Of a DNA stretch of 40,501 nucleotides, positions 7,846 through 37,359 are shown in pieces (position 1 is the stretch's first letter; each line of letters begins with the position of its first letter). The notes below the pieces were generated by a model. It worked only from the letters and a program-made list of their open reading frames with translations, was not told the origin of the DNA and made no database searches. The position numbers and the translations under genes were made by a program. This stretch comes from Deltaproteobacteria bacterium (GTDB taxonomy: Bacteria; UBA10199; SPLOWO2-01-44-7), in the NCBI GenBank assembly GCA_016213065.1, contig JACRBV010000059.1, positions 1 through 40,501 on the forward strand, written 5' to 3'.

Positions 7846-8317
7846 AAAAAATCTGCCACTTTTGGGCTAAGCTTGATAGCATTGCCCCTATTTCTGCATA
7901 TTTCCCCGTTAATTTAGTGTATTTGTCCTCTTCAATATAATTAAACTTCATTCCAAATTCCAACCATATCTTCATTTCTTCACAGGAACCGAGGCAATCA
8001 ACAAGATGGCGTTTGAATATTTTTTCGTGTCTTCTTTTAGCCCATCCTTCTGCCAAATTTGCAGGAATGGAACGAGAGGCCCTTCGCATTTGATCAACGA
8101 GAGAATAGCGTTCTTCTTCCGGGAATGTTGTCGTGATTTGATAGATTTCCAAGGCTAGATGAAATGATTGTTGATAGACATTGAGATCACGATAAGTCTT
8201 GATCGGTTTTTTTTCAAATTTTGTCACCTCTCTGCCTCTCTGTTTCTCTGCCTCTTCTCTGCTTCTCTGCATCTTTGCCTCTCTGCATCCCTGCCTCTCC
8301 GCCTCTCTGTCTCTCAT
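7844..8317 (-). CDS. Four-helix-bundle protein (23S rRNA intervening-sequence / S23 family)
   Basis: 157 residues if it starts at the ATG overlapping the gatA stop (ATGA). The family domain begins near residue 38 with [20 protein letters not shown]. It continues with the hallmark [20 protein letters not shown] and [10 protein letters not shown], and two further helices to the end. Such proteins form pentameric helical barrels and are often encoded in 23S rRNA intervening sequences or beside diversity-generating elements; their cellular role is poorly known. Residues 1-33 (rich in R, E, K, Q) are encoded wholly by the octamer repeat. The real start could therefore be a later GTG near residue 31. 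The gene is embedded in the gatCAB operon and flanked by inverted arrays, which suggests it arrived as a unit. Confidence 0.85.
8225..8316. repeat. CTCTCTGC octamer array (N-terminus of the IVP gene)
   Basis: G residues recur every 8 bp, with one 11-bp interval, through about 88 bp of CTCTCTGC-like units. On the minus strand the array is open and encodes the R/E/Q-rich N-terminus of the IVP protein. It ends exactly at the gatA stop codon. Confidence 0.85.
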
Positions 8318-26924: not shown

Positions 26925-29900
26925 ATGTTCTCTCTCAATCCCCCTTATCCTCAATCCATCGTTGGTCTTGATTTATCCTCCGAGGCTTATTTCCTTGCGC
27001 GTTTTTTTGAAGCGTCAAGGGCAGGCCTTGCCTGCCCGCGAAGCAAACTCGCAGAGTTTGCGGAGTTTAATAGTCTTGGGAAAAGTTTTATTCGCGTCAC
27101 TTCTGATTTAAAATCAGGCATCACTCTCAAACAAAATCTGGAATTTTTTTTGGGACCCCAAAATGCGCATTCGGTTCTCTGGTTTCCTCCTCACGACTCG
27201 CTTCCCTATACCGGACTTGTCTCCGGAACCGATACGATGGCTGAAAGAATGAAAACATTGTCGACTCTTCTTTCAAAAGAGCCGCATATTCTCGTGGTCC
27301 CATGGCCTGCATTATCAAGAAAAATGATTCCGCCTTCTGTTCTGCGCCATTATCAGAGGACACTTTTTTTGGTCGACGAGGTGCATAGAGAAGAGCTGGT
27401 CTCTTGGCTCATTGATGCGGGGTATACCGAGGAAGTTGTTGTGGAGTCTCCCGGTGATTTCGCTCTGCGCGGGGCCCTGATCGATATTTTCCCTCCGCAG
27501 GAGGAATATCCGTTCCGTTTGGAGTTTGAAGGAGATTATTTAATGGGAATTCGCCAATTTGATCCGGCAACTCAAACTTCATTAAAAATAAAGGACCGTG
27601 GACCGTGGACTATGGACCATGGACCAAAGACTAAGAACCGTGATTCGCGAGTTACACTTATCCCCGCTAATGAAATTGTTTTCAATGAAGCTTCTGTGAG
27701 TCATGCCGTCAAACAAATTAAAATGTGGAGTGATGCAGAGGATCTTCCGGCAACACTTCGAAGAGAGGTCGTGGAGCGGATTGAACAAAAACGGGGCTTC
27801 GCAGGGCTAGAAACTTTTCTTCCCACCTTTTATGAGAAATCGGCAACCCTTTTTGATTATCTTGATCCCGAAACCATTTTGTTTCTCCCGGACACGGATG
27901 AGTTGAAAGATATTTACAAAAAAAATCTGGAGGAGATGAAGGGGCTTCATCAAAACACAAAAAGTCTGGAAAAAATTGTGCCGCCCGAGGAGTTGTTAAA
28001 CTCTTTTGAAAAGTTGGAGGAAGAAAGAAAAAAATATTCCACCATTTTTATCAATCCGCTTTTTACCGCTCAAGGAAAAGAGCCTCACCGAGTGCGTATA
28101 GAAAATTCTCTTCATCTCAAAAACCAATGGAGTTTTGACAAGCTTAAAGAGTGGCAGAAATTAAATTTTAAAATCCGTCTTGTCTGTCACACACCGATTC
28201 AAGCCGAACGATTACAGGATCTGCTTCGAAGCCATGGTATTTCAGGGATTCCGGTTGAAGTGGGTTCTTTATCTTACGGTTTTGAATGGCCCGATGAAGG
28301 ACTTATTGTTTTGACGGAAGAGGAAATTTTTGGTCACAAAATGGTTCGTCGGACAAAATCGTCAAAAGAAAATCTTCCGTTTGTATCTTTTCAAGAGCTT
28401 AATGCCGGCGATGTTTTGGTTCATGAAGAACAGGGTGTTTGCCGTTATCAGGGACTCGTGCATTTGAAAATTCACAAAGAGGTTGGAGATTTTCTGCATC
28501 TTGAATTTTTCGGTGGGGATAAATTGTATCTTCCCATTTACCGACTCAACGCCGTGCAACGCTACATCGGCGGTTCCACGCCGCATCTGGATAAACTGGG
28601 AGGAGTGCGTTGGCAGCAGATTAAAAAGAAGGCGGGCATTCAGATCGAAAAAATCGCCTCGGAGTTGCTCAAAATTCATGCCCAGCGGGAATTGCATCCG
28701 GGTTTGAGTTTCCCGTCCCCGGATACTCTCGACGAAGAATTCGCCGCGCAATTTCCTTTCGATGAAACTCCCGATCAGGCAAAAGCCATCGCGGATGTAT
28801 TGCGAGATATGCAAAATCCAAAACCCATGGACCGCCTGATTTGCGGCGATGTGGGCTATGGAAAAACGGAGGTGGCGATGCGGGCCACCTTCAAAGCGGT
28901 CAATGCCGGCAAACAAGTTGTCTTTTTGGTGCCGACAACTATTCTGGCGCTTCAACATTTTGAAACATTTCAGGAACGCTTTTCCAAATTTAGTGTTTCG
29001 GTAGAGATGCTTTCAAGATTTCGCTCCCGCGCGGAACAAAAACAAACGCTGAACAATCTGGCCGAAGGCAAAGTGGATATTGTTATCGGCACACACCGCC
29101 TTTTGGGAAAAGATGTGAAGATAAAAAATCTGGGGCTTTTGATTATTGATGAAGAGCATCGTTTTGGAGTCAAACATAAAGAAAGAATTAAGAATCTCCG
29201 TCCCACGGTGGATGTGGTGAATCTCTCCGCAACACCAATTCCCAGAACGCTTCACATGTCTCTAATCGGTCTCAAAGATTTGAGTATCATTCACACGCCG
29301 CCCGTGGATCGCCTTGCCATCCGCACCTTTGTGGCACGGTGGGATGATGCGGTGGTTCGTTACGCCGTGGAACAGGAACTCGCGCGTGGGGGACATGTCT
29401 TTTTTGTTCATAACCGTGTTGCCACCATTGAAGGGATGCGCAAAAGATTGTCGGGTCTTTTTCCCAACGCCTCCATTGCCGTGGCTCATGGTCAGATGGA
29501 TGAAGAGGAACTTGAAAAGGTCATGATCTCCTTCCTACACCAAAAAACACAGATTCTCCTGACCACCACCATTATTGAATCGGGGATTGATGTGCCGACG
29601 GCAAACACCATGATTATCAATCGCGCCGATACGTTTGGGTTGGCGCAGTTGTATCAGCTGAGAGGGAGAGTGGGTCGCTCCGATGTTCAGGCATTCTGTT
29701 ATCTTTTGGTCCCCGATGAAGAAATGGTGACGAAAAATGCAAGACAACGTCTCAATGCGCTGACCCGCTACACCGAGTTGGGTGCTGGTTTTCAGATTGC
29801 TTCGCATGATTTGGAAATTCGCGGATCGGGAAATCTTTTGGGGGCGGATCAATCCGGTTTCGTGGAAGAAATCGGCTATGAGCTTTATACAAAATTACTC

Positions 29901-30362
29901 GCAAGAACGATTCGAAAATTAAAGGGTGAAAAACTTGATGAGGAGATCGATCCTGAAATTCAACTCGGGAGTCCGGCATTTATTCCGGAAGAATATATCG
30001 CCGGTGCCTCTTTGAGAATGGAACTTTACAAACGCATATCGCATTTGGCGGATGAAGAAGCGATTCAATCTTTTCGACAAGAGCTTGTGGACCGCTTCGG
30101 CCCTTTTCCCGCGCCCGTGGAAAGTCTGCTTGAAGTTATTGCCCTCAAACAATTGGCGATTCAGCTCTCTCTGAAATCACTGAAATTCGATGGCGAGCGT
30201 TTTTCTCTGGTTTGGGATTCCTCCACTTCGGTTTCTCCCGCAAAACTGGTGGCGTTGGCTCAAAAAAATCCGGCACGATATCAATTAAAACCCTCGGGAC
30301 TTTTTCTCGTGAAAGTCCCGTTGGAAGAAGCGAAAAAGGCATTGAGGGCGCTGGCTGAATAG
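26925..30362 (+). CDS. mfd: Mfd, transcription-repair coupling factor, with two repeat-encoded inserts
   Basis: 1145 residues, family length. Mfd removes RNA polymerase stalled at lesions and recruits UvrA. The N-terminal UvrB-homology part has GALIDIFPPQEEYPFRLEFE (near 185). The RNA-polymerase-interacting CarD-like domain begins at AGDVLVHEEQGVCRYQGLV (near 490). The RecG-like translocase has Walker A GDVGYGKTE (near 642) and DEEHRFG (near 742). It also has LSATPIPRTLH and QLRGRVGRS, and the TRCF C-terminal domain ends the protein. Residues about 31-50 are encoded by two hairpins (27019-27061). Residues about 223-240 (DRGPWTMDHGPKTKNRD) are encoded by a heptamer array (27591-27645). Neither segment belongs to the normal family sequence. 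Confidence 0.96.
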   Translation: MFSLNPPYPQSIVGLDLSSEAYFLARFFEASRAGLACPRSKLAEFAEFNSLGKSFIRVTSDLKSGITLKQNLEFFLGPQNAHSVLWFPPHDSLPYTGLVSGTDTMAERMKTLSTLLSKEPHILVVPWPALSRKMIPPSVLRHYQRTLFLVDEVHREELVSWLIDAGYTEEVVVESPGDFALRGALIDIFPPQEEYPFRLEFEGDYLMGIRQFDPATQTSLKIKDRGPWTMDHGPKTKNRDSRVTLIPANEIVFNEASVSHAVKQIKMWSDAEDLPATLRREVVERIEQKRGFAGLETFLPTFYEKSATLFDYLDPETILFLPDTDELKDIYKKNLEEMKGLHQNTKSLEKIVPPEELLNSFEKLEEERKKYSTIFINPLFTAQGKEPHRVRIENSLHLKNQWSFDKLKEWQKLNFKIRLVCHTPIQAERLQDLLRSHGISGIPVEVGSLSYGFEWPDEGLIVLTEEEIFGHKMVRRTKSSKENLPFVSFQELNAGDVLVHEEQGVCRYQGLVHLKIHKEVGDFLHLEFFGGDKLYLPIYRLNAVQRYIGGSTPHLDKLGGVRWQQIKKKAGIQIEKIASELLKIHAQRELHPGLSFPSPDTLDEEFAAQFPFDETPDQAKAIADVLRDMQNPKPMDRLICGDVGYGKTEVAMRATFKAVNAGKQVVFLVPTTILALQHFETFQERFSKFSVSVEMLSRFRSRAEQKQTLNNLAEGKVDIVIGTHRLLGKDVKIKNLGLLIIDEEHRFGVKHKERIKNLRPTVDVVNLSATPIPRTLHMSLIGLKDLSIIHTPPVDRLAIRTFVARWDDAVVRYAVEQELARGGHVFFVHNRVATIEGMRKRLSGLFPNASIAVAHGQMDEEELEKVMISFLHQKTQILLTTTIIESGIDVPTANTMIINRADTFGLAQLYQLRGRVGRSDVQAFCYLLVPDEEMVTKNARQRLNALTRYTELGAGFQIASHDLEIRGSGNLLGADQSGFVEEIGYELYTKLLARTIRKLKGEKLDEEIDPEIQLGSPAFIPEEYIAGASLRMELYKRISHLADEEAIQSFRQELVDRFGPFPAPVESLLEVIALKQLAIQLSLKSLKFDGERFSLVWDSSTSVSPAKLVALAQKNPARYQLKPSGLFLVKVPLEEAKKALRALAE
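27019..27061. repeat. Two adjacent hairpins inside mfd
   Basis: GGGCAGGCCTTGCCTGCCC (27019-27037) and GCAAACTC/GAGTTTGC (27043-27050/27054-27061) are perfect inverted pairs within the coding frame and encode RAGLACPRSKLAEFA-like residues. Confidence 0.75.
27591..27645 (+). repeat. ATGGACN heptamer array inside mfd
   Basis: About seven 7-bp units: GACCGTG twice, GACTATG, GACCATG, then degenerate GACCAAA, GACTAAG, AACCGTG. Encodes residues about 223-240 of Mfd, placed between TSLKIK and RVTLIPANEI. Confidence 0.9.
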
Positions 30363-30535
30363 ACTATGGACCATGGACTATGGACAAAGGACCTGAAAAT
30401 ATGACTATGGACAATGGACAATGGACCGTGGACCTAAAAAAAATCCGTAATGAGTCCCTGTCTATAGTCCATAGTCCATGGTCTATAGTCCATGGTCCAT
30501 TGTCTATAGTCCATGGTCCATGGTCCATGGTCCTT
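30361..30535. repeat. Inverted pair of heptamer arrays between mfd and ppiC
   Basis: ATGGACN units fill 30361-30433 and GTCCATR units fill 30464-30535, separated by about 30 bp. The two halves are complementary and could form a long cruciform. The second half supplies the ATG and preceding frame of ppiC. The first half contains the mfd stop. Confidence 0.9.
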
Positions 30536-31438
30536 CTCCTTCTGCTTCTTTCCTGTTCCCCTTCCAAACCCTCTTCCCCCACATTGGCCTTGGTGAATGG
30601 TGAAAAAATGCCCTTGTCCGATTTTCAAAAGGCGCTTGATTGGGAACAGTGGAAATTTGGAACTGAAGTCAGTTTAAGCGATTCCCGCTCGCAACAGCTC
30701 AAAACAAAGGTGATGGATTCACTGCTCAAAGACCGGCTTCTTTTGCAGGAGGCAAAAAAAAGAAACATCACCGTTTCTGATTCGGAAGCTGAAAAAAGTG
30801 TGGAGAGTGTGCGCAAAAATTATCCCAATCAGGATGACTTTGAAAAACTCCTTCGTTCAAAAGAATTAACGGTGGAAGATTTTCGACAACAGAGAATTCA
30901 GGAATTAACCATCAAAAAATTGATGGAGGCGGTAACCAAAGAGCAATTGACCCTCACAGACGGCCGACTCAAAAGATATTATGAGGAATATCTGACCGAA
31001 TTCCAGCATCCGGATCAGGTGAGGGCGCGTCAAATTGTGACCGACTCGGCAGAGAAAGCTGAAAGTGTACGAGCGATGATTACCAGTGGAACTTCCTTTG
31101 AAGAAGCGGCTAAAAAATATTCTTTAAGTCCTGACCGGAAAAAAGGCGGGAATTTGGGTTGGTTTGGAAAGGGAGAAATGCCTTTGGAATTTGAACAGGT
31201 TTGTTTTCATTTGAATAACCTCGATCTGAGTCCCGTGGTAAAGACACCTTATGGCTATCATCTTTTTGAGGTGTTGGAAAAGAGGGGGGCTGGACAGCTT
31301 CCATTTGATGAGGTAAGGGAGTCCATCCAAACGAAGATTATGGAAACAGAGGGCCGAACGGCATTTCAGAAATGGTATGAGCAGATTCGCTCTCAGGCCA
31401 AAATAGAGGTCCACACGGAATTGCTGGAGGAAAAGTGA
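30527..31438 (+). CDS. PpiC-type peptidyl-prolyl isomerase lipoprotein
   Basis: 303 residues from the ATG at 30527. The N-terminus MVLLLLLLSCSPSKPSSP is a very short lipoprotein leader with lipobox LLSC but no basic residue before the hydrophobic run. The ATG itself is part of the heptamer array. A longer start at 30380 would add 49 repeat-encoded residues. A SurA-like helical N-domain covers about 30-130. The parvulin PPIase domain (about 170-265) has VRARQIVTDS and the GGNLGWFGKGEMPLEFEQ motif, and ends with TPYGYHLFEVLEKR. It should act as a periplasmic folding catalyst or chaperone. Its stop overlaps a GTG at the surA end and lies 14 nt before the surA ATG. Confidence 0.88.
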   Translation: MVLLLLLLSCSPSKPSSPTLALVNGEKMPLSDFQKALDWEQWKFGTEVSLSDSRSQQLKTKVMDSLLKDRLLLQEAKKRNITVSDSEAEKSVESVRKNYPNQDDFEKLLRSKELTVEDFRQQRIQELTIKKLMEAVTKEQLTLTDGRLKRYYEEYLTEFQHPDQVRARQIVTDSAEKAESVRAMITSGTSFEEAAKKYSLSPDRKKGGNLGWFGKGEMPLEFEQVCFHLNNLDLSPVVKTPYGYHLFEVLEKRGAGQLPFDEVRESIQTKIMETEGRTAFQKWYEQIRSQAKIEVHTELLEEK

Positions 31439-31452
31439 GAAGAAGAGGGCAA

Positions 31453-32454
31453 ATGATGACAGAAGTCAGAGTACAGAAGACAGCAAACAGATGTCAGAAA
31501 ACAGAAGACAGAGGTCAGAAGCCCAGTTTTTCTGTCCTCTGTTTTTCTGTCCTCTGTCTTCTGACTTCTGACATCTGTCTCCTGCCTCTCTTCCCCTCCC
31601 CCCAACCTGCCCATGCAAAGGTCATTAACAAGGTGGTGGCTGTTGTTAATAATGATGTCATTACAGAGTATGATTTGGACAGGGCCATGGCATCGAAGGG
31701 TGTCGGTAAAAAATCACGCAGGCAGGTGCTGGAGGATTTGATTGACCAGACACTGCTCAAACAGGAAATGGAAAAGACCGACATCGAAGTAACCGATGAT
31801 GATTTAGTGCGCGCGATTGCGGGTGTTTTGGATCGCAATAAAATCAACATTGAAATTTTACGTGCCGAGCTCGCGTCCAAAGAAATTCCTTTTGAAACTT
31901 ATAAAGAACAGCTCAAACAGCAAATCAAACAGACCAAATTTATTCAGCAAAATGTGGGCTCCAATGTTTCCGTGCAAGATGCCGATGTAAGCGCCTACAA
32001 ATTTGAACGGGCGGAGGTCGTTAATCCCAGTGGAACTGTTCATATTGGTTGGATTTTTTATTCCCTAGACGACGACCATTCCGAGAAAGAAATTAAAAAA
32101 GTATTTATTAAAGCGCGGAAAGTGGCTGACAAAGCCCGTCAGAAAGGCGCCGACTTTAAAAAGATTGCCAAAGAGACCGGCGATCTGGGTGAAAAAAGTC
32201 TCAGCGATCTACCTCCGGCGATTTCTTCCGAGGTGCGTCGAATGGAAATAGGAGAGGTGAGTGATCCCATTGTATCCCCGCAAGGAGTTTATGTAGTGAA
32301 GCTGTATGAAAAAGCACTTCAAAATGTTTCGGAAAAAGAAAAAGTGGATGACATGCAGATTCGGCAGACAATTTACAATAATCGCATGGAACAGGAAATT
32401 CACAATTACGCTTTGAAACTCAGAAGGAAGGCCTTCATTGATGTCCGGGAATAG
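31453..32454 (+). CDS. surA: SurA-type periplasmic chaperone/PPIase with a repeat-encoded signal peptide
   Basis: 333 residues from the ATG at 31453; a GTG at 31435 overlapping the ppiC stop is an alternative. Mature sequence begins near AKVINKVVAVVNNDVITEYD, the typical SurA N-domain start. A single parvulin domain follows (about 195-285; VHIGWIFYS, LSDLPPAISSEVRRMEIGEV, GVYVVKLYEK). The signal peptide consists of a basic hydrophilic part (KTEDRGQKPS-like) and a hydrophobic part FSVLCFSVLCLLTSDICLLP, ending PSPQPAHA. Both are encoded by complementary CAGANNN / CTGTNNN heptamer arrays (31459-31590). SurA escorts outer-membrane proteins. It lies between ppiC and pdxA; the surA-pdxA order is common in proteobacteria. 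Confidence 0.9.
   Translation: MMTEVRVQKTANRCQKTEDRGQKPSFSVLCFSVLCLLTSDICLLPLFPSPQPAHAKVINKVVAVVNNDVITEYDLDRAMASKGVGKKSRRQVLEDLIDQTLLKQEMEKTDIEVTDDDLVRAIAGVLDRNKINIEILRAELASKEIPFETYKEQLKQQIKQTKFIQQNVGSNVSVQDADVSAYKFERAEVVNPSGTVHIGWIFYSLDDDHSEKEIKKVFIKARKVADKARQKGADFKKIAKETGDLGEKSLSDLPPAISSEVRRMEIGEVSDPIVSPQGVYVVKLYEKALQNVSEKEKVDDMQIRQTIYNNRMEQEIHNYALKLRRKAFIDVRE
31459..31590. repeat. Inverted CAGANNN / CTGTNNN heptamer arrays forming the surA 5' end
   Basis: Nine 7-bp units starting CAGA or CAGC (CAGAAGT, CAGAGTA, CAGAAGA, CAGCAAA, CAGATGT and so on). The complementary units follow (CTGTCCT, CTGTTTT, CTGTCTT, CTGACTT, CTGACAT). The two halves can pair. Both remain open in the surA frame. Confidence 0.9.
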
Positions 32455-32459
32455 GAAGA

Positions 32460-32492
32460 ATGGACCATGGACAATGGACTATGGACAATAGA
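32460..32492 (+). repeat. ATGGACN heptamer array at the pdxA start
   Basis: Units ATGGACC, ATGGACA, ATGGACT, ATGGACA, then ATAGACT. The array begins 5 nt after the surA stop and supplies all possible pdxA start codons. Confidence 0.9.
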
Positions 32493-33341
32493 CTTGTCAT
32501 TGGAATTACAACCGGCGATCCCAAAGGGATTGGTCCGGAAGTTGTTTCCAAGGCGTTAAGCGATCCCGAAATTCAATCGCTGGCACAATTCAAAATTTAC
32601 GGCCCCACTATTTCCGATCCCCGATTGCCCGACATCCATTCTGCGCAAACAGCCATCAGTTCTTTGGAAGCGGCGTTGATCGATGCGCTCAATAAAAAAA
32701 TCGATGCGTTGGTGACGGCTCCGGTGAACAAGGCGCGTCTTCGTTTGGTGGATAAAAATTTTATCGGACACACCGAATTTTTTGCCACTCGTGTGAATGC
32801 AAATGTTTGCATGATGTTTGTGGCGAAAAATTTGCGTGTCTCTTTGGTAACACGGCATTTGCCTCTCTCTCAAGTAGCGATGCGTCTCAACGCGGTTGAA
32901 ATTTTGCAGACGATTCGTCTGACTTATGAGGGACTTCAGCAATATTTTCATATTCTATCACCCTATCTGGCCGTGGCGGGGTTAAATCCGCACGCTGGTG
33001 AAGGGGGGATGTTGGGGGATGAAGAAACGAGAATAATCCATCCCGCTCTGATGCAAGCCAGAAAAGAGGGGATACATGTGGATGGTCCCATTTCCCCCGA
33101 CACCCTTTTTTGGGAAGCTTCGCAAAGTAAATGGGACGGAGTGATTGCGATGTATCACGATCAGGGGTTGATTCCGGTTAAAACGCTGGCTTTCAAAGAG
33201 GCGGTGCAAATTACCTTGGGACTTCCGTTCTTGAGAGTTTCCGTTGATCACGGAACAGCGGAAAATATTGTGGGAACTGGGAAAGCCGACGCCACCAATC
33301 TCAAATCAGCCATTCGTTTGGCATGTCGGTTGAAAGATTAG
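32460..33341 (+). CDS. pdxA: 4-hydroxythreonine-4-phosphate dehydrogenase, short form
   Basis: 293 residues from the ATG at 32460; the ATG at 32481 (MDNRLVIGI) is equally plausible, and both belong to the heptamer array. AGGAAG at 32453-32458 is too close to the first ATG to be ideal. The enzyme oxidises 4-phosphohydroxythreonine in pyridoxal phosphate synthesis. Motifs are ITTGDPKGIGPEVV, VTAPVNKARL, GHTEFFATR and VTRHLPLSQVAMRL. They continue with GLNPHAGEGGMLGDEE, MYHDQGLIPVKTLAF and SVDHGTAENIVGTGKAD. The metal-binding histidines are present. The stretch between the N-terminal motif and VTAPVNK is about 35 residues shorter than in typical 330-residue members. It is the last gene of the mfd-ppiC-surA-pdxA series. 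Confidence 0.92.
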   Translation: MDHGQWTMDNRLVIGITTGDPKGIGPEVVSKALSDPEIQSLAQFKIYGPTISDPRLPDIHSAQTAISSLEAALIDALNKKIDALVTAPVNKARLRLVDKNFIGHTEFFATRVNANVCMMFVAKNLRVSLVTRHLPLSQVAMRLNAVEILQTIRLTYEGLQQYFHILSPYLAVAGLNPHAGEGGMLGDEETRIIHPALMQARKEGIHVDGPISPDTLFWEASQSKWDGVIAMYHDQGLIPVKTLAFKEAVQITLGLPFLRVSVDHGTAENIVGTGKADATNLKSAIRLACRLKD

Positions 33342-33534: not shown

Positions 33535-36500
33535 TTACACCATGTTTTTCTTTATTTTGTCAACCAAAGGAGTTCTTAAGACGATTAAAGATAAAGCGAA
33601 CACCATAAGCAAAATATATCCGATGATATTGTTGCTTTCACTCCCCTTCACCAACGAACAACCTCCTGAAATTTTGTAACCCATCGGGGTCCCTGCATCT
33701 GTTTCTCCTGTGACGGCAACGGCCACTTCCCCCGGAATTTCCGCCACACCTCCCACCACAGCGACGGCTTTGCTCAGTTGAAAGCTGTTACAACCCGAGG
33801 CATTCCCGGGGTCGCTGGCGCAAACAACCATCGTGAGCGGTTCTTTCCCAACACCACTGTCAGCCGCTTTTGCCGCAGATAAAGAGTGAGCCGTTGACAC
33901 GGCAGGAGGGAGAGCATTGAGCGTTATGTTTGCCGCGCCGGACTGGCAGGAACCTTTTTTGGTGAAGAGAACCTGCTTTTCTTCAATCTTGTCGACCCAG
34001 CAAGAGATATCATTGCCGCTTGCATCTTTGAAAGATTTGACCGAATTTTTCAGAGCATCGTGCGCCACATCGGAAGCCTCAAATTTGACGTACCCATTGG
34101 TTCCGTCCCATACAGAATCTTTCGGTTCCAATTTCGGTTTTTCGTTGATGTTGAAAAAGAAGGAAAGCGCAAAGCCCGCGGCTCTGGGATTATCGGCTAT
34201 GGAGGTGTCGAACACTTCAAAAATTGCGGCCAGATCAGTGCCACCATAGTTTTTGCGCGTCAGAGGAACAAGATATTTTGGATGGCACAAACGCAACATC
34301 GGATCATTGAGTATGTTGTTCTGGCTGGAATCGGCCGTGAGATTTTCTTCCTCCAAAACGGCGACTGCAGGATTGTTGTTGGCATCCAGTGTGATTTGTT
34401 CCCCCATAATACCGCAGTCTTTGTCTCCATAAACGTTCCAAGCATTATCGTCCGGCGCGAAACGCGCATCGGTCGTTTCCCTTATATCTACAAAGAAACC
34501 GTGAACACGATCGTGCCGTTCAACGCGGGATTGCGCGTGATCTTCTTTCATTTCCTGCACCTCACCGGATTCCGTGATGAAAATTTTATTACCGCTGACT
34601 TCGGAAGCAGGAAGGTCTCTCTTGATTTTGTCTTTGCTGATGATGACACCGGGTATTTCAGAAATGTCTCGCGCCACGGGATTCCATCCGGACGCGTCTT
34701 TGCTGACTTCTATGAGTTTCTTGAATAAATTATTTCCATCTTTTATCACCAAGATCGCGTAAAATTTACCTTCCTTGTCGGAAGCGACCAATCGAAAATA
34801 GGTTACCTTTTCTTGGGCCGACAATTTTTGCAATGTTACGAAAGAACATTGGAAATGATCTTCCTCGGCGGTTTTGTTGCAAATGTCGAGACCCGCAACA
34901 TTGGCGGACTCACTGCCACACTCAACTCCACCGACAAGATAAGAGGTGTTGCCGAAGGCGAATCCCTTGAAGGTGTCTATCTTGGAGACGTCACAGTATT
35001 CTCCTTGCCAAATTCTTGTGGGGTTTCCCGCCTCATCCGTTGGAAAGCAGATTGGCGCCGGGAGTATGGTGGCGGGCTGGAGAATTTGATTGATATCCGC
35101 GTAATAACAATATTCACGTTCGGATACTCCAACCAGCGCGTTTTTTCCGCTAATCTGTGTAACGGCAATTTTCTCAAGAGGACCTCGGGATAAATTACGA
35201 TATTGGATTTTGCTTCCCAAATCTGTGCAATTAGTGCCCAGCTCTCCCATGGCTTTGGGAGGAACTAGCGCCAGCAGGCCTTTGCCCACATCGTTCGCGC
35301 CAGTTACAATCAAAAATTGTTTTTCAAAATCTCCGGAATAAAAGAGAGCCGAACCATTAACGCTGTCAAAGGAATTCAAAAGAACCGTGCAGGTTCTGTT
35401 GTCCGAATCGGGATCGTCTGCCCTCTTGGCAACGTCGAAAATTTTGGAACTTGCCGCTGATCCTTCCGGCAAAACAATCGCCTTAATGATACACTCCGGT
35501 TTCTCAACGAGAGCCCAGCCTGTAGCACCGCATTGAAGAGTATGACATTCGTCGCCTTTTAGTTTGGTGAGTTTGTCGACAAGCGCCCATTGGCCAGCAC
35601 GGCAAATTATACTTTGGCAGGCACTGGGAATAGGTTTTCCTCCAATTTCCGTTTCAGGAGAACATTGTCCTTGGGCGTTGCAAGTTCCCGCTACATGACA
35701 GGTATCCGACGCCTCTGGACAAAGAATGGGTTTGAAACCTGTGCAAACGCCGCTTTGGCAAGTATCAACGGTGGTGCAGAAATTTCCATCGTCACAGCGA
35801 GTATTGTCGGCAACATTGACGGCGGTACAACTGCCCCAAGCGCCACTTGCCGAACAGATCTGTTGTCCCTTTTTGCAGTCGTTAGTGTTGCCCTGAAGCA
35901 CACAATTCTGCGTGGCACCGGGTGCGCAATTAACAAGATTACCGTCGAGACAGAATCCGTCACCTGTGGGAGCAGGTCCATTGGCAAGGTTGGTATGGTA
36001 ACATCCCGCAAGAAATTTAACAGAGCACCCGTCTCTGGTGCAGGGGTTGAAATCATCACAGTTACGCGGGGCTCCGGTACAAACTCCAGACCGGCAGGCG
36101 TCACCGATGGTGCAGACATCTTCATCATTGCACACGGAACCATTTGCTTTGAAAGTGGTGGCACTGCAAACTGAGTTGCATCCAACTGTGCCCACTCCGC
36201 GGCAATCTCCGGTTCCGAAATAACAAGGTTGTCCATAATTGGCTGGATCGGATTGACCGCAAACACCGCAAATGTTTTTGGTGGAGGCGGCGCTACAGGC
36301 ACCCCATGCATTGTTGATGCCGCAAGTTTGGGTGCCGGTACAGCCATTTGCGTTTGAGCAGGGTTGGGAATCACCGCTGAGGCACGCAACAGAAGTTCCA
36401 CGGCAAACACCATCGGTGCAAACATCATTTGTTGTAAGTCTAACAGCGTCATCGCATGCAGTACCGTTAGGAACCGGTGTTTCTTGGCAACTCCCATCTT

Positions 36501-37359
36501 CTTTGCAAACGCCATGCTCCATGCAAACGTTGCTCGTACTGCAAGTAATGGCTCGTCTATAATCCCACCCAATAGTAGTACTTGCGACACAGGCCCCCCA
36601 TGCATCCCCGCTTGTATTGCAAGTTTGATAACCGGAAGAACAGGCCGAGTTTACATTGGCACCAGAAAGGGTGCATGTTTTTAGTTCGTTAGGAGTGCAA
36701 AGAGAGGTTACCGTGACTGTTTTTGTTTGAGAAAAAGCATTAGTTATTGGGAGACCATTTTTGACTAAAGTTGCTTGGAGTCCTATCGTATGGTTTCCGA
36801 CGGTTGAAAAACTACAGGTAATGATGTTGGGTGTTGTGGACGTAGATCGATAAATTTTGTGGGTGTCATCTGAATAAAGCGTATCATCGCATTTTGGATA
36901 GATATAAGTCCAAACGCCATTCGGCACTGTCCCATTGTTCAAATTATTATATACTTCGCATTGGAAAGTAGCTTTACCGCTTGCAGGATCTATTGCTTGT
37001 ATGGTCGGAGTGCATGCGCCGATGGCTGGAGGAATGACAACTTCGGTACGGCATTCCCAATCACAACCGTCCCCGCTGGTATTATTCCTGTCATCGCATG
37101 TTTCTCCGCTATTATAATCCACAGTACCATTTCCACAACAGTAGGGCCGGATGTCTCTTACACAGAAATGGCTGATGCACATTCCTGTGGTTTGTTCACA
37201 AATTCCCGGGGGAGTCGATGGCGTGCAGACAGAACCATTGATGGCACAATAATCATCTGCAACAACTACCGCGGCTTTGACGGGCGTAGAAAAAAGCAGA
37301 ATTCCTAAGAAACTGCCCAAGAAGAAAAGCCTTACAAATAATTTAATAGAAGTGTCCAT
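33535..37359 (-). CDS. Giant Cys-rich surface protein with C-terminal GGCSL-transmembrane tail (paralog A)
   Basis: 1274 residues. A Sec signal peptide (about 1-29, ending TPVKA) is followed by a Myxococcus-type Cys-rich repeat, CGNGTVDYNSGETCDDRNN (near 75). A long region of disulfide-type repeats follows to about residue 590 (CDDGNFCTTVDTCQSGVCTG and similar). Residues about 600-1200 form a domain without recognised family, shared with the next gene: FNINEKP, FKDASGNDISCWVD, and CASDPGNASGCNSFQLSKA. The C-terminus has GYKISGGCSL, a single membrane helix (IIGYILLMVFALSLIVL) and a basic end. This is the layout of C-terminal sorting or anchor signals. Surface exposure and anchoring are inferred; no enzyme motif is seen. 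No Shine-Dalgarno precedes the ATG. Confidence 0.85.
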   Translation of the reverse strand: MDTSIKLFVRLFFLGSFLGILLFSTPVKAAVVVADDYCAINGSVCTPSTPPGICEQTTGMCISHFCVRDIRPYCCGNGTVDYNSGETCDDRNNTSGDGCDWECRTEVVIPPAIGACTPTIQAIDPASGKATFQCEVYNNLNNGTVPNGVWTYIYPKCDDTLYSDDTHKIYRSTSTTPNIITCSFSTVGNHTIGLQATLVKNGLPITNAFSQTKTVTVTSLCTPNELKTCTLSGANVNSACSSGYQTCNTSGDAWGACVASTTIGWDYRRAITCSTSNVCMEHGVCKEDGSCQETPVPNGTACDDAVRLTTNDVCTDGVCRGTSVACLSGDSQPCSNANGCTGTQTCGINNAWGACSAASTKNICGVCGQSDPANYGQPCYFGTGDCRGVGTVGCNSVCSATTFKANGSVCNDEDVCTIGDACRSGVCTGAPRNCDDFNPCTRDGCSVKFLAGCYHTNLANGPAPTGDGFCLDGNLVNCAPGATQNCVLQGNTNDCKKGQQICSASGAWGSCTAVNVADNTRCDDGNFCTTVDTCQSGVCTGFKPILCPEASDTCHVAGTCNAQGQCSPETEIGGKPIPSACQSIICRAGQWALVDKLTKLKGDECHTLQCGATGWALVEKPECIIKAIVLPEGSAASSKIFDVAKRADDPDSDNRTCTVLLNSFDSVNGSALFYSGDFEKQFLIVTGANDVGKGLLALVPPKAMGELGTNCTDLGSKIQYRNLSRGPLEKIAVTQISGKNALVGVSEREYCYYADINQILQPATILPAPICFPTDEAGNPTRIWQGEYCDVSKIDTFKGFAFGNTSYLVGGVECGSESANVAGLDICNKTAEEDHFQCSFVTLQKLSAQEKVTYFRLVASDKEGKFYAILVIKDGNNLFKKLIEVSKDASGWNPVARDISEIPGVIISKDKIKRDLPASEVSGNKIFITESGEVQEMKEDHAQSRVERHDRVHGFFVDIRETTDARFAPDDNAWNVYGDKDCGIMGEQITLDANNNPAVAVLEEENLTADSSQNNILNDPMLRLCHPKYLVPLTRKNYGGTDLAAIFEVFDTSIADNPRAAGFALSFFFNINEKPKLEPKDSVWDGTNGYVKFEASDVAHDALKNSVKSFKDASGNDISCWVDKIEEKQVLFTKKGSCQSGAANITLNALPPAVSTAHSLSAAKAADSGVGKEPLTMVVCASDPGNASGCNSFQLSKAVAVVGGVAEIPGEVAVAVTGETDAGTPMGYKISGGCSLVKGSESNNIIGYILLMVFALSLIVLRTPLVDKIKKNMV

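Follow-up and report, generated by a model that had tools for sequence, protein, structure and literature searches.

The surA-like gene of a 1.8-Mb draft genome (G000, 155 contigs) carries, within the code for its signal peptide, two heptamer arrays that are complementary and inverted. We consider it likely, with a probability of about three in four, that an inverted heptamer element landed inside the surA signal-peptide code and was kept as signal peptide. The gene lies on contig C59, the 40,501-nt stretch of DNA that was analyzed and is called the window here; all surA features below are on its + strand.

The ORF at 31435–32454 was identified as SurA-like by a domain search, which returned SurA_N (E = 1e-12) and PpiC rotamase (Rotamase, E = 1.4e-6). 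The two domains in an exported-type protein are those of SurA; a single rotamase domain was found. The mature protein (31618–32454) shared 46–57% identity with its counterparts in five genomes of the same family. A Shine–Dalgarno motif, GGAGG (31426–31430), lies within the 3′ end of the upstream gene, 4 nt 5′ of a GTG start. The codon table places this GTG and the basic MRRRGQMM at 31435–31458, with the GTG overlapping the upstream stop as GTGA. The surA gene of G003 starts at the same overlap (ATGA); those of G002 and G004 start at or within the end of the upstream gene. These features indicate that the native surA start was probably kept and that the basic MRRR is not array-derived. Before the mature domain, the only in-frame ATG, GTG or TTG codons are GTG 31435, ATG 31453, and ATG 31456, all of which precede the first arm. 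Since the codon table gave none from 31459 to the beginning of the mature part, any normal start must lie 5′ of the arrays. A start 3′ of the arrays, which would have undercut the sequence-only reading, was ruled out, as the in-frame candidates ahead of the GTGs in the mature part are limited to CTG, ATC, and ATT.

Repeat scan, codon table, and autocorrelation delimited the two arms. Arm A (31459–31521) consists of nine (A/T)CAG(A/C)NN heptads, eight of them with CAGA, and encodes the hydrophilic TEVRVQKTANRCQKTEDRGQK. After a 6-nt spacer (31522–31527, encoding PS by the codon table), arm B (31528–31587) is an inverted TCTGNNN array that encodes the hydrophobic FSVLCFSVLCLLTSDICLL. Its seven TCTG units start at 31531, 31538, 31546, 31553, 31560, 31567, and 31574; an extra T makes a single 8-nt step, where the phase shifts, and the arm ends near 31587. 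The lag-7 autocorrelation was 0.66 in each arm versus 0.16–0.39 at the other lags from 4 to 13. The best local complementarity between the arms was 31, whereas the maximum among 500 shuffles was 17. The sequence-only reading had placed two heptamer arms here and read their codons; both points were correct, and the arms were re-found within 31459–31587. RNA folding predicted a long mRNA hairpin with the two arms paired (31439–31590); the fold of 31435–31620 had −79.8 kcal/mol (z = −7.83), and none of 200 shuffles was as good. The array units in surA have diverged from one another, and this speaks against slippage being frequent. There was no support for the idea that the element avoids stop codons, with 5 stops in six frames versus 5.7 expected.

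The translated N-terminus reads MRRRGQMM-TEVRVQKTANRCQKTEDRGQK-PS-FSVLCFSVLCLLTSDICLL-PLFPSPQPAHA/KVINK (the slash marks the predicted cleavage site), with both arms in the surA frame. It has a basic n-region, a hydrophobic core, and small residues at −3 and −1, the layout of a Sec-type signal for signal peptidase I. Residues 1–31 have a net charge of +6, and FSVLCFSVLCLL has a mean hydropathy of 2.72. The whole hydrophobic stretch has 22 residues with a mean hydropathy of 2.15 and one Asp; such a long, Asp-containing stretch could act as an uncleaved anchor. Export and cleavage are predicted because the frame is intact, the cleavage site aligns with those of relatives, and the mature protein is conserved. 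The earlier claim that the arrays make up the signal peptide held insofar as both arms are read in the surA frame, but the native start, ribosome site, MRRR, and cleavage tail flank the array. Likewise, arm A had been called the basic n-region; it is hydrophilic with a net charge of +3, but the strongly basic MRRR lies outside the array, and arm A is better described as a long hydrophilic extension. Arm B does encode the hydrophobic part, and the array-encoded stretch continues to the L at 31584, past the 12 residues originally quoted. The proposed PQPAHA cleavage site also agreed with the alignment: the non-array tail ...LFPSPQPAHA/K (31588–31617) aligned with the putative sites LHA/K, LQA/K, AQA/K, and ALA/K of relatives.

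The 5′ ends of surA were compared among relatives. G002, G003, and G004, which belong to the same family and lack arrays, have ordinary SurA signal peptides of ~20 residues at exactly the same place (MKNKNALGLFVVFMLGSFPLHA/K, MKRNISLLVFLFFPLLLQA/K, and MKVISVIFLILFSMVAQA/K, respectively). The 3′ end of the upstream gene aligns with relatives as far as GAGGAAAA; in the G000–G003 alignment, homology breaks off there and picks up again close to the cleavage site, the array lying in the gap. The homologous flanks are the upstream gene end with the overlapping start on one side, and the AHA/K cleavage site with the mature domain on the other. The ordinary signals of relatives and this flanking homology indicate, at the sequence level, that the array replaced or split the native signal peptide. 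In G005, which is placed in the same genus as G004, the surA signal has 48 residues, and the corresponding interval holds an inverted array from a different family, GGACCAT/GTCCATG. The surA signal of G001 has one GTCCGTA-type arm, i.e., half an inverted array. Heptamer arrays with differing sequences thus occur in this interval in three of the six genomes. The signal region of surA from G007 (L048), of a different family of the class, is FFLTPYTLHLTPLLPSLHA and resembles a (TTACACC) heptamer array. The surA genes of G019, G039, and G008 (L040, L043, and L051) and lolA of G004 (L194) have signals seemingly with other dispersed repeats (SLRAQRSNL...LAMT, CHCEAKPKQSQ, and TMSGYQKRTMSGYQKR), suggesting that other repeat families also enter signal peptides.

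Heptamer arrays were surveyed in about 0.6 Mb of sampled stretches of G000, approximately one third of the genome. There were 59 period-7 arrays versus 5–9 for each other period from 4 to 13, about a ten-fold difference, a count in which a few all-N contigs added the same small number to every period. The families include GGACCAT, CAGANNN, TCAGCNN, AAAAATC, and others, and three of the 59–71 rows in the type lists consist of N or are A-rich. GGACCAT-type patterns numbered 95 in G000 and 33 in G005, whereas the 44 further genomes from the class had 0–2 each. Inverted pairs had a single polarity in 39 of 40 cases (19:1 and 20:0), with a median spacing of 23–27 nt. Translation of 39 elements gave 234 arm-frame comparisons, and in 231 of these the second arm read was the more hydrophobic one. 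Three units of seven make seven codons, and every frame of a perfect array gives the same heptapeptide, rotated. The window also contains an array with an 8-base unit at 8227–8315 (CCTCTCTG, about 11 copies, 73% match).

Arrays recurred in other exported proteins of G000 and G005. In G000, they were found in CtpA, LolA, LppC, a secretin, GspH/I/J-type pseudopilins, a YaiO protein, a PpiC lipoprotein, and SurA, and also in a pseudopilin that is of GspK type by position. In G005, they were found in a porin, a pilin, a BamA-type Omp85 protein, CtpA, LppC, LolA, and SurA; the non-exported PdxA, GrpE, Rieske, XseA, and 23S-IVP proteins of G005 carried them too. The arrays make up much of the N-terminal signal region in CtpA, LolA, LppC, BamA-type, SurA, PpiC lipoprotein, and several pseudopilins across two genera. 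The recurrence of intergenic-type repeats as signal-peptide code in many exported genes of G000 and G005 bears out the idea that a signal peptide can come from non-coding repeats. The PpiC lipoprotein is encoded upstream of surA, and its signal (30380–30550, +) has an inverted GGACCAT/GTCCATG pair followed by an LLLLLLSC lipobox. It reads MNLKLLILLLLVASC in G003 versus ...SIVHSPWSIVHGPLSIVHGPWSMVLLLLLLSC in G000; the orthologues in G001 and G005 are also array-built, and those in G002 and G003 are not. The CtpA signals are MKKVLILFLLMVSPAFA/L in G004, MKKIIITLLLVLSPWSMVHGPALA/L in G005, and ..FLVLVLGLWSIVHSPAFA/L in G000. As the ctpA array code has equal length and phase in G000 and G005, the array may have been inherited and then lost in G004, or gained twice. 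Downstream of surA, a GGACCAT array (32460–32493, +) provides pdxA with its ATG and initial codons. Further downstream, a Cys-rich ORF of 1274 residues (33535–37359, −) has a hydrophobic N-terminal segment and may encode a surface protein.

Palindromic repeats of this kind were inserted in frame within unrelated genes of G000 and G005, including the bodies of the cytosolic proteins encoded by mfd, valS, and dnaG, so their retention need not mean usefulness. The window mfd (26925–30362) has an in-frame GGACCAT array at 27593–27634 (KIKDRGPWTMDHGPKTKNRDSRV), and mfd of G005 (L155, 4404–7859) has one at apparently the same place. In a valyl-type tRNA synthetase, a CAGA-family array lies just 5′ of LVVATTRPETMLGD in G000, and a GGACCAT-family array occupies the same site in G005 (L111:190-2526 and L150:5192-7966).

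Array density was compared among compartments, with signal peptides called by hydropathy. In G000, codons 10–60 of ORFs that have a single hydrophobic segment at the N-terminus held 10.2 arrays per 10 kb, intergenic DNA 4.4, and protein bodies 0.45. The corresponding values for G005 were 24.5, 7.6, and 1.36; this sample was drawn from array-bearing contigs, which inflates its densities overall and leaves the compartment contrasts unaffected. Of the G000 ORFs with one such segment, 12 of 87 had deep N-terminal arrays, as opposed to 4 of 438 among the remaining ORFs (p = 2e-7); the G005 figures were 10 of 35 and 10 of 221 (p = 5e-5). This classification is partly circular, as the arrays themselves add hydrophobicity. 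With array residues masked, the enrichment was weak in G000 (p = 0.02–0.07) and absent in G005, giving no independent support, because masking deletes the hydrophobic part itself. A check free of this circularity used protein families. Among deep N-terminal-array genes of assignable family, exported families accounted for 11/13 in G000 and 7/12 in G005, 18/25 together. The excess has p of about 1e-6 against an exported background of 25%, which is an assumption, and several of the type II secretion genes share one operon. The ratio of hydrophobic to hydrophilic arms was 23:16 in N-termini versus 16:32 in bodies (p = 0.02), a modest excess. The predominance of the hydrophilic arm in bodies (32/48, p = 0.03) is consistent with surface insertion. 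We infer that selection could be the cause of the signal-peptide enrichment.

These observations fit a mechanism in which scattered elements, each with a left arm rich in purines (CAGANNN or GGACCAT) that is followed, after a spacer of roughly 10–50 nt, by its complement, would spread by slippage, by template switching at the hairpin, or through a mobile element. Seven being coprime to three, a perfect heptamer array spells the same seven-residue repeat in every frame; and with complementary arms in a fixed order, either strand reads hydrophilic first and hydrophobic second, as an export signal does. Whatever its orientation or phase, an insertion would then give the n-to-h order, provided that the downstream frame still fits. 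Signal peptides would tolerate nearly any sequence with this layout, and for that reason insertions there would be kept far more often than in protein bodies. For surA, one element would have inserted after the native start and before the native cleavage site, where it would have been retained as signal peptide.

The simplest competing explanation is neutral tolerance, by which arrays expand or insert everywhere, signal peptides are the least constrained code, and a native core elsewhere still works. Many array-bearing signals do retain a native Leu-rich core beside an arm (LLLLLLSC, FLLLLVLG), and the arrays in enzyme bodies point the same way. However, surA has no native hydrophobic core outside the array, its sole non-array remnant being about PLFPSPQPAHA, and the over-representation of the hydrophobic arm in N-termini, modest as it is, also runs against tolerance only, which we judge unlikely. 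Still less probable is that the array is chiefly a regulatory mRNA hairpin or protein-binding element between operon genes that tunes surA translation or mRNA stability, its coding being incidental. The very stable predicted hairpin just 3′ of the surA start, the density of arrays in intergenic DNA and at gene starts, and similar paired heptamers of Geobacter metallireducens, proposed as global-regulator binding sites (PMC2700814), would suit such a role. Yet the arrays concentrate within the translated signal region and not just in untranslated leaders, and they also lie inside protein bodies, mostly as the hydrophilic arm. A metagenome assembly or binning artefact, with repeats misjoined into surA, is very improbable. 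The genome is a draft in many contigs, and a long near-perfect CAGAAGA array ends contig C138 (L121:9994-10131) and begins contig C90 (4–105), showing that arrays do break assembly; the shared unit run is probably one locus split in this way. Nevertheless, the surA frame is intact across the insert, both flanks match relatives, and the same situation recurs in many genes and in a separate genus.

The insertion reading of surA can be extended. Inverted arrays of fixed polarity may be ready-made, strand- and frame-independent donors of export signals. Within one family, they would have repeatedly overwritten the signals of envelope-biogenesis and secretion proteins in two genera or more, and a repeat that looks selfish would have become a main source of signal-peptide sequence; we put this forward tentatively, at a little under an even chance. 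The candidate targets, namely SurA, LolA, LppC, CtpA, BamA-type proteins, and type II secretion pseudopilins, are proposed with the same reserve. As sequences, these cases suggest that spreading repeats may be reused as working protein-export signals. Because signal peptides are short and change rapidly, their origin and turnover are poorly documented. In the present cases the donor sequence is recognizable, and relatives with native versions exist for surA, ctpA, lolA, and the PpiC lipoprotein. A simple rule emerges: a unit coprime to three, combined with a purine-to-pyrimidine inverted layout, yields a peptide that is hydrophilic first and hydrophobic second whatever the frame or strand. The rule predicts which repeats of other genomes can become export signals.

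No prior report of signal peptides built from dispersed inverted repeats was found in the literature searched, which, as an absence, is weak evidence. Several known systems share parts of the pattern. Beggiatoaceae and cyanobacteria have genome-wide short heptamer arrays, the TAACTGA repeats, many of which adjoin start codons (PMC4679880). Unlike the surA arrays, these are direct, almost all intergenic, and proposed as translation regulators. In Geobacter metallireducens, paired heptanucleotides include class 3 (MTYCTGA, five tandem units, in pairs on opposite strands) and GGACCGG x4 (PMC2700814). The likeness lies in paired opposite-strand tandem heptamers with a unit close to TTCTGAC, and in a GGACCGG type that also occurs within genes; the consensus overlap of class 3 with the surA arrays is partial (TTCTGAC/TTCTGTC) and unit numbers differ. 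The Geobacter elements are described as putative regulator-binding or RNA elements, in passages that make no mention of signal peptides. In Borg ORFs, young tandem repeats add new segments to proteins, many of them extracellular or membrane proteins (PMC9879509). The arrays here also make new protein segments; the Borg repeats are described as perfect amino-acid repeats, commonly disordered, in contrast to the frame independence of a unit of seven and an export signal as product. In Neisseria opa, a single direct CTCTT pentamer array in the signal-peptide code mediates phase variation in one gene family (PMC3960869, PMC4534519). As in opa, surA has a tandem repeat within its signal-peptide code whose unit is not a multiple of three, and a change of unit number shifts the frame. 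The difference is that imperfect inverted heptamer pairs, known from sequence alone, occur here across numerous unrelated genes for exported proteins. Rickettsia palindromic elements and similar coding palindromes are dispersed, both intergenic and in frame in unrelated proteins (PMC10969869, PMC2996958). The arrays here are likewise dispersed palindromic repeats between genes and in frame inside unrelated proteins. Unlike the Rickettsia elements of about 150 bp, they are heptamer arrays of variable length, belong to more than one sequence family, and are concentrated in export signals.
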